A stretch of DNA of 64,000 nt from contig NZ_AP024597.1 in the NCBI RefSeq assembly GCF_019704315.1, positions 2,046,001 through 2,110,000 of the forward strand. The letters are read 5' to 3'. Below are positions 49,968 to 58,560 of this stretch, piece by piece. Source of the DNA: Stygiolobus caldivivus. GTDB taxonomy: Archaea; Thermoproteota; Thermoprotei_A; Sulfolobales; Sulfolobaceae. A program made the position numbers and the translations under genes. The notes under the pieces were generated by a model. It was not told the origin of the DNA. It did no database searches and saw nothing but the letters and a program-made list of their open reading frames with translations. Positions within the stretch are counted from its first letter, which is position 1. Every line of letters begins with the position of its first letter.

Positions 49968-50040
49968 AGCCGGGTAGTCTAGCGGCCAAGGATCCAGGGC
50001 TCTGGCCCCTGGGACCCCGGTTCGAATCCGGGCCCGGCTA
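49968..50040 (+). tRNA. tRNA-Gln (CUG), target of integration
   Basis: Complete 73-nt cloverleaf: acceptor AGCCGGG/CCCGGCT, anticodon stem CAGGG/CCCTG around loop CTCTGGC (anticodon CTG), T loop TTCGAAT, discriminator A, CCA not encoded. A TATA-like GTTTTTTAGAC lies about 30 bases upstream. The 3' part from 49994 onward is the attL core, so the end of the functional gene has been rebuilt by the integrated plasmid. Confidence 0.93.
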
Positions 50041-50218
50041 CCTTACTTAGGGGGGTACCCCCTAAGACCCCCAATGCTACCTTAACGACCTTGTCTAAAG
50101 TACCGACGTAACGGTCCCTCCTCTGACCGTCTTGAAACTTCTCTATAATGTAAACATAATACTTCCCCTTAACCTCACGTATTCTGATATCACCAAATGT
50201 GAAAACTTTATTACCCAT
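49979..50218 (-). CDS. SSV-type integrase, N-terminal fragment (intN)
   Basis: A 79-aa frame. Residues 1-60 (starting MGNKVFTFGDIRIREVKGKY, with RDRYVGTLDKVV) match the N-terminal domain of SSV integrases, including the GKYYVY and YVG-L motifs. Residues 61-75 come from the tRNA core and the last few are read through the tRNA 5' half. After integration this piece is separated from the catalytic domain at 55613 and is inactive alone. The ATG is at 50218. Confidence 0.88.
   Translation of the reverse strand: MGNKVFTFGDIRIREVKGKYYVYIIEKFQDGQRRDRYVGTLDKVVKVALGVLGGTPLSKVAGPGFEPGSQGPEPWILGR
49994..50044 (+). repeat. attL core (51 bp, in tRNA-Gln)
   Basis: Runs from the anticodon stem to just past the tRNA end and is identical to 56408-56458 (offset 6,414 bp). 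On the minus strand it encodes AGPGFEPGSQGPEPW, shared by both integrase fragments. Confidence 0.93.
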
Positions 50219-50622
50219 ACCTTCCCCCGGTTTATAATTATCACGTGTAGGTATTTAAGGAGTGATAAGTATCATACCACGCGTGGGTTTGAAAGAAAGT
50301 GATAAAAACTCCTCAGTTGTGGGAAAAATTGGATTTCGTCACCCACTGTAAGTGGTAAAAATTCAAAAAATCACGGGGTCTTAGACACGGTGTGGGGTCG
50401 TTAGATAAATCCAATTTTTTGCATTGAATTTTAACAAGAGCATAGTAATAATATCACGGGACTGATTACTTATGGCACGATTTCCCAAAATTTTGTTATA
50501 TTATTTTTTCGCTCACGGCGTACAAAACGAAAAGAAATTATAACATTTTTTTGGGAAACCGTGCCATAAAATGTACATGACAGTTGAAAAATTGAATTTC
50601 AAAAAATCCAAAGCACGCCGTG
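50219..50622. other. AT-rich non-coding region, candidate replication origin
   Basis: Lies between intN and the 3' end of rep. It holds two inverted repeats: a perfect 13-bp pair AAAAATTGGATTT (50324-50336 and 50407-50419) and a large imperfect pair of about 38-40 nt per arm (50470-50509 and 50531-50569, outer part TTATGGCACG). No gene is seen. Being the only long non-coding stretch near rep, it is the best origin candidate in the plasmid, but that is inference. Confidence 0.5.
50470..50569. repeat. Large imperfect inverted repeat (hairpin)
   Basis: Left arm begins TTATGGCACGATTTCCCAAA and the right arm ends TTTGGGAAACCGTGCCATAA. The inner parts are TTTTGTTATATTATTT against its near-complement. 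The loop of about 20 nt includes CGCTCACGGCGTAC. Suitable as a single-strand or double-strand origin or a terminator for rep. Confidence 0.75.
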
Positions 50623-58256: not shown

Positions 58257-58329
58257 AGCCGGGTAGTATAGCGGCCAAGTATCCAGGGCTTTGGCCCCTG
58301 GGACCCCGGTTCGAATCCGGGCCCGGCTA
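58257..58329 (+). tRNA. tRNA-Gln (UUG)
   Basis: Complete 73-nt cloverleaf nearly identical to the CUG gene at 49968. The anticodon loop is CTTTGGC (anticodon TTG), and D-arm changes (GTATAGC, AAGTAT) are compensatory pairs. Discriminator A; no CCA encoded. The sequence just 3' of it resembles the DNA 3' of the CUG gene, showing that an element integrated here too. Confidence 0.93.
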
Positions 58330-58508
58330 CCTTACTTAGGGGGTACCCCCCTAATACCCCCAATCTACCTTAACGACCTTGTCTAAAGTACCCACGTAAC
58401 GGTCCCTCCTCTCATTGCTTTCAGCCTTTTTCGTTGAGTAAACATAATACTCCTCCCCACCTCACGGACCCTTGTTATCACTAAGTGTGAAAGCCTTATT
58501 ACCTACGA
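58330..58508 (-). pseudogene. Decayed, mosaic intN of a third element (C)
   Basis: The tRNA-proximal 80-90 bp (58330-58412) are almost the same as those next to tRNA-Gln(CUG) (50041-50123; RRDRYVGTLDKVVKV is readable). The distal part from 58430 is the 131-bp repeat shared with element B. Frameshifts and loss of the ATG inactivate it. No matching attR or intC is found to the right within the window. Confidence 0.72.
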
Positions 58509-58560
58509 CCTTTTATTGCGGCGTTAGTTAAAAGACGTGATAACTACTATATCAGTTGTG
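58430..58560. repeat. 131-bp direct repeat, copy 2
   Basis: Second copy of 56554-56684 with one mismatch. Sequence similarity to element B stops soon after 58560. Confidence 0.85.

Follow-up and report, generated by a model that had tools for sequence, protein, structure and literature searches.

The closest described systems are the SSV-type (type I, "suicidal") integrases of SSV1 and SSV2 (She et al. 2001/2002; Badel et al. 2021, PMC8371274), in which, as at the locus described here, the integrase gene is split by an attP inside it, the core spans the anticodon stem-loop to the 3' end of the tRNA gene, and the PF16795 domain is present. The cuts made by the SSV1 integrase border the anticodon loop exactly, and the loop is the overlap region (PMC8371274). 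The same combination of a small RepA plasmid with an SSV-type integrase is known from pRN plasmids carrying a fusellovirus integrase, namely pSSVi and pXZ1 (Peng 2008, via PMC8371274), and in the latter account pXZ1 and its fusellovirus counterpart made use of two tRNA-Glu genes that differ in a single nucleotide, a parallel to the tRNA-Gln(CUG) and tRNA-Gln(UUG) genes treated here. Orphan intN fragments remain at tRNA 3' ends in Sulfolobus islandicus (PMC3718332), and element arrays form through re-use of an integration site (PMC6563490). Chimeric suicidal integrases, as summarized in PMC8371274 from Badel et al. 2020 and Redder et al. 2009, arise by homologous recombination between integrated copies.

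The window, that is the whole stretch of 64,000 nucleotides that was analysed, comes from the single-contig genome (2.96 Mb) of Stygiolobus caldivivus. It holds both tRNA-Gln isoacceptor genes on the same strand and three N-terminal integrase parts (intN), denoted A for that of an intact plasmid and B and C for two dead scars; scar C follows tRNA-Gln(UUG), 1.8 kb on from the start of B at attR (Table 1). The arrangement of the stack as such is of a known kind.

The integrated plasmid and its target genes

The CUG gene is occupied by an intact pRN-type plasmid unit of 6,414 bp, located between exact copies of a 49-bp att core, with intN at one end and intC at the other. That an intact intN follows this tRNA gene agrees with the original prediction. 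Joining intN A to intC across the core yields a single open frame of 339 aa, which places attP inside the integrase gene. The joined integrase is nearest to those of SSV6 (70% identity) and SSV5 (66%), with only 47% identity to the integrase of NC_010365 (presumably pXZ1) and 33% in the case of NC_013777 (presumably pSSVi). The distal part of intN A together with its promoter has 88.6% DNA identity to SSV5. The intC product aligns to the SSV1 Int structures 3UXU, 3VCF and 4DKS with an E value of 6e-36, and the motifs RLTE, KYLRKF and HYLDL (the R, R and H-Y blocks) are conserved, giving a PF16795 domain with the R..R..H-x..Y signature of self-splitting integrases. RepA has the prim-pol, pRN1 helical and D5-type helicase domains by which the pRN family is recognized, and its closest plasmid relatives are pSSVx (67% identity over 78% of the query), pDL10 (53%, full length) and pRN2. 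A CopG-like repressor and a PlrA-like regulator also mark the family; the plasmid has a short ORF that may be CopG-like, scoring below the Pfam cut-off, and an AbrB-like ORF related to a pSSVx protein (Table 1). The host genome has no intC other than that of the plasmid, and no SSV-type integrase that is intact and able to excise the plasmid was found elsewhere in it.

Table 1. Features of the tRNA-Gln region; positions are those of the window.
Feature	Position	Strand	Evidence
tRNA-Gln(CUG), occupied target gene	49968-50042	+	ARAGORN
attL core, 49 bp, anticodon stem to tRNA 3' end	49994-50042	+	exact repeat of 56408-56456
7-nt anticodon loop, predicted crossover (overlap) region	50000-50006	+	tRNA fold and SSV1 Int overlap rule (PMC8371274)
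intN (A), intact N-terminal integrase part, 58 aa to tRNA edge	50043-50218	-	PF07935, E 1.2e-13
RepA, prim-pol/helical/helicase, pRN family	50623-53322	-	PF13010, PF09250, PF08706
54-aa putative ribbon-helix-helix (CopG-like) protein	53582-53746	-	weak DUF6290 match, E 2e-4, below Pfam cut-off
57-aa AbrB/MazE-like protein	54912-55085	+	63% to a pSSVx protein; MazE E 0.005
intC, catalytic integrase part	55613-56407	-	PF16795, E 2e-42
attR core, the original CUG core copy	56408-56456	+	exact repeat of attL
intN (B), dead: start lost, frameshifts, stops	56457-56735	-	tblastn and DNA repeats; adjoins attR
Near-identical tract in B, proposed donor	56558-56690	.	sequence comparison
Remnant, decayed, of the N-terminal part of an end-filament (VP4-like) gene of fusellovirus type; probable cargo of B	56857-57196	-	SSV11 E 6e-10, SSVRH B812 E 8e-8, also DNA-level support
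tRNA-Gln(UUG)	58257-58331	+	ARAGORN
intN (C), dead	58332-58605	-	tblastn and DNA repeats; adjoins tRNA-Gln(UUG)
Proposed gene-conversion tract in C	58433-58566	.	130/134 identical to B
Gene for a 491-aa protein, a chromosomal neighbour conserved beside tRNA-Gln(UUG); sets the outer limit of element C	59120-60595	-	homologues in the same relative position in G004 (L125) and G020 (L126)

The UUG gene contains a further copy of the 49-bp core with one mismatch (58283-58331), and there is no copy beyond these three in the window. Among 24 family genomes with an exact 19-bp core, a third copy of the core is found only in the host genome (G000) and in G016. The two tRNA-Gln genes had been predicted to share the att core except for one anticodon base, and this is the case, the sole difference between 49994-50042 and 58283-58331 being base 50002/58291 within the 7-nt anticodon loop. 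The core is placed in the 3' part of the tRNA gene, as in SSV-type targets, and the crossover would be expected at the anticodon loop. Because the cuts of SSV1 Int border the loop, an anticodon-base mismatch would fall where strand exchange needs pairing, and since the differing base is in an SSV1-type crossover region, sharing of both genes by one integrase should not come free. Each of the intact elements carries the anticodon base of the tRNA gene that it occupies (CUG/CUG for the plasmid, UUG/UUG for the element in G016 and CUG/CUG for that in G003), and the idea that one integrase could use both tRNAs found no support. It is possible that a single integrase acts on both genes, and related integrases do use two tRNA-Glu genes differing in one base in the work of Peng 2008 as cited in PMC8371274.

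Scars B and C

The decayed regions downstream of attR and downstream of tRNA-Gln(UUG) had been taken for intN remnants, and tblastn (E 1e-9 and 9e-14, respectively) and DNA repeats agree that both are intN-derived. Each of them has lost the start codon and carries a +1/-1 frameshift pair and in-frame stops. Next to the tRNA the three intN differ, with 94% identity between A and C (83 bp), 79% between A and B and 77% between B and C; they are three distinct lineages, and at least three integrase lineages have therefore visited the locus. No attR or intC of element B or of element C survives, and scar C lacks cargo as well. Since the conserved gene for the 491-aa protein begins 0.8 kb downstream, what was originally proposed as element C is only a scar of at most 0.8 kb.

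The 491-aa gene was considered as cargo of C and rejected, its homologues being located beside tRNA-Gln(UUG) also in G004 and G020, genomes of another genus than the host. The host genome has one more copy of it (L127), and searches of Pfam, PHROGs and phage records with its product gave no match. Further downstream (61273-61978) there are two adjacent PaREP1/HEPN-like genes, likely a tandem duplication, which have a near-identical segment of about 40 aa in common. Dispersed non-coding repeats, 70–80% identical and present in many copies in the host genome, are located on both sides of the region (49145-49248 and 60668-60902) and may be MITE-like; the 49145-49248 repeat is absent from the other family genomes searched.

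The VP4-like fragment suggests that element B is probably fusellovirus-derived. Its strand is that of intN(B), although SSV6, SSV11 and SSVRH have int and VP4 on different strands; unless the fragment stems from something else, a rearrangement has to be assumed. Of the fusellovirus core genes that would be expected in SSV-like order (VP1, VP3, VP4 and DnaA-like), B has only this N-terminal fragment, in an unexpected orientation, and is therefore called fusellovirus-derived and not a member of the fuselloviruses.

Contrary to what the original prediction had implied, the two scars are not fully independent records. B and C have a block of about 134 bp in common that is 97% identical (130/134), and the sides of the block are only 70% (74/105) and, distally, 64% (27/42) identical (Fisher 5e-9 and 1e-7). 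The inactivating mutations common to B and C fall inside this block, and none of the other intN in the alignment, taken from relatives and viruses, has them. Scar C is accordingly a mosaic, with a tRNA-proximal part that is A-like (58332-58412, 94%) and a following part that is B-like (97%); the informative sites along C change from A-like to B-like at about position 58421, a split reached by 0 of 100,000 permutations. The block is best explained by gene conversion, most likely from B to C and after B had decayed, the far (right) edge of the tract being placed on about 40 bp. The promoter in the tract matches that of one intN group (L068, L069, L072 and L093), and the promoter of A is of the type found in SSV5/SSV6, L067 and L073; because the tract promoter belongs to another group than that of A, B is the likely donor. 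Conversion from A itself is disfavoured, as the proximal part of C is only 94% identical to A and differs from it by three indels and a 13-bp patch of divergent sequence, and the plasmid looks fully intact. An apparent return to A-like sequence past the tract was dropped, the sites in question being ancestral in other intN promoters.

tRNA-Gln genes in related genomes

In the 31 family genomes an intN is found within 330 bp downstream of 16 of the 59 tRNA-Gln genes, five of the genomes showing it at both isoacceptors, so the tRNA association of such remnants holds in relatives too. The comparison called for by the original prediction gave all of the states, from empty or nearly so (G001) and a single scar (G008) to a stack (G016) and a full element (G003). 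In the syntenic sister species G001 the orientation of the CUG gene is reversed and both tRNA-Gln genes have no more than short traces of intN, which with regard to the ancestral layout is a point against the explanation preferred below. The inversion between the two species of the genus comprises tRNA-Gln(CUG) and its leader (49968-50042 against L034 8764-8838), beside the same conserved ORF (48575-48970). G003 has a full fusellovirus-like element at tRNA-Gln(CUG), with about 15.4 kb between the cores.

Another genus provides a before/after pair. In G008, tRNA-Gln(UUG) is followed by a dead intN, and in its sister G016 an 8.7-kb element bearing an intN and an intC of its own is located exactly between the two, with 95–96% identity between the genomes on either side of the inserted element. 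Insertion at the tRNA-proximal position, pushing the older intN outward, is directly demonstrated by this pair. The G008 and G016 tRNA-Gln loci (L173, L047, L041 and L042) also include a second, independent mosaic scar. The scar at the CUG gene of G008 is UUG-like for about 165 bp beside the tRNA and then matches the CUG scar of G016 (0/20,000 permutations), and its first approximately 57 bp are identical to the UUG scar of G008 itself. The two tRNA-Gln genes of G008 are 786 kb apart, and exchange between isoacceptor scars is therefore no quirk of the tandem layout.

The host genome has five more orphan intN without intC, at G000:C1:1776931, 1736408, 491335, 2298517 and 1617852, and four of them abut tRNA-His, -Asp, -Pro and -Ala. 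In Metallosphaera yellowstonensis an SSV11-like provirus is located near tRNA-Gln(UUG) (L043 6967-17993/G018:C19:305897), and its integrase gene, at a distance of about 1.3 kb from the tRNA, is unsplit and frameshifted and extends across an att core; another core follows about 13 kb further on. The unsplit gene is perhaps a junction of stacked elements, where an intN was rejoined to an intC.

Probable history of the locus and comparison with known systems

Repeated use of the two tRNA-Gln genes by elements with SSV-type integrases, with conversion between scars B and C and plasmid A arriving last, accounts best for these observations, and we give this history as a whole a probability of about 0.8. 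Besides the layout in G001, the strand of the VP4-like fragment, the loss of attR and intC of both B and C and the short stretch behind the far edge of the tract count against it. An older element B, probably a fusellovirus, would have entered the CUG gene, where after its decay an intN scar and the adjoining fragment remained. Element C, with an integrase that should be a close sister of that of the plasmid, would have entered the UUG gene, and of it only an intN scar would be left. The conversion tract would then have rendered the middle portions of both scars nearly identical. In the final step, a pRN-type plasmid with an SSV5/SSV6-like integrase would have recombined its attP with the CUG gene, landing between the tRNA and scar B, because the crossover should lie inside the tRNA gene, and thereby rebuilding the tRNA and splitting its own integrase. 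The resulting order would be tRNA, intN(A), plasmid, intC, attR, intN(B). The order of events originally predicted, with B in the CUG gene, C in the UUG gene and the plasmid last at the tRNA-proximal position, is thus retained in outline, given the three lineages and the proximal insertion seen in G008/G016; its independence of B and C is lost, and C stands only as a scar.

The mosaic of scar C might instead come from the collapse of a stack, which we consider possible but unlikely. A plasmid closely related to A would have been located at the UUG gene beside a dead intN of another type (X), and recombination between the direct intN repeats would have deleted the plasmid and its attR, leaving a hybrid scar with an A-like proximal and an X-like distal part. 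Scar C, being without attR, intC and cargo, has exactly this geometry, the CUG scar of G008 has an equal one (of UUG type proximally, and distally an orthologue of the CUG scar of G016), and intN A and B are direct repeats, 75% alike and 6.4 kb apart, around the present plasmid. However, a collapse requires an earlier X-type scar at both tRNA genes and hence a second event, the identity of B and C falls also distally, as a conversion tract predicts, and the identical start of the two G008 scars points to copying between scars. Three fully independent integrations, with B and C alike only through related elements, would fit the three intN lineages that differ beside the tRNA but are improbable, since the lost start, the frameshift pair and a stop are shared within the 97% block and the adjacent parts are so much more divergent. 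Segmental duplication of one tRNA-Gln gene with its intN scar, which the close tandem position of the two genes might suggest, is rejected as very improbable, as the two leaders differ from each other and are orthologous to those of other genomes (G001, G004 and G020 for UUG, G001 for CUG), both isoacceptors are present in nearly all complete family genomes, and the near-identity is confined to about 134 bp.

With repeated integration and scar conversion as the preferred history, counting integrations by intN remnants can mislead. Once inserted, self-splitting elements should be trapped, and the locus bears on the ways in which they exit, switch target or disappear. Dead intN scars at isoacceptor tRNAs could serve as cassettes of homology, exchanging segments among themselves and with elements that arrive later, and intN repeats could excise a stacked element without integrase; a hybrid scar would remain on the chromosome, and the released circle would have a rebuilt integrase gene with shuffled domains. 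This is a speculative extension that we hold to be rather doubtful; if true it would give self-splitting elements an integrase-independent exit. The before/after pair and the mosaic tRNA-Gln scars in two genera would make scar recombination a concrete source of both reshuffling of integrase N-domains and element loss.

Compared with SSV-type integration the mechanism has no visible difference, and what is particular here is the presence of three intN around two isoacceptor genes. The intN at tRNA 3' ends are like the orphan intN of S. islandicus, and the parts of PMC3718332 that describe these make no mention of mosaics between isoacceptor scars. Scar-to-scar exchange at isoacceptor tRNA genes, of which no description was found in the open-access texts consulted, seems to be the modestly new part. 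In the chimeric suicidal integrases, as far as they are described via PMC8371274, the recombining elements are in opposite orientation and the hybrids are active, whereas the exchange at the tRNA-Gln genes involves dead scars at two isoacceptor tRNAs.
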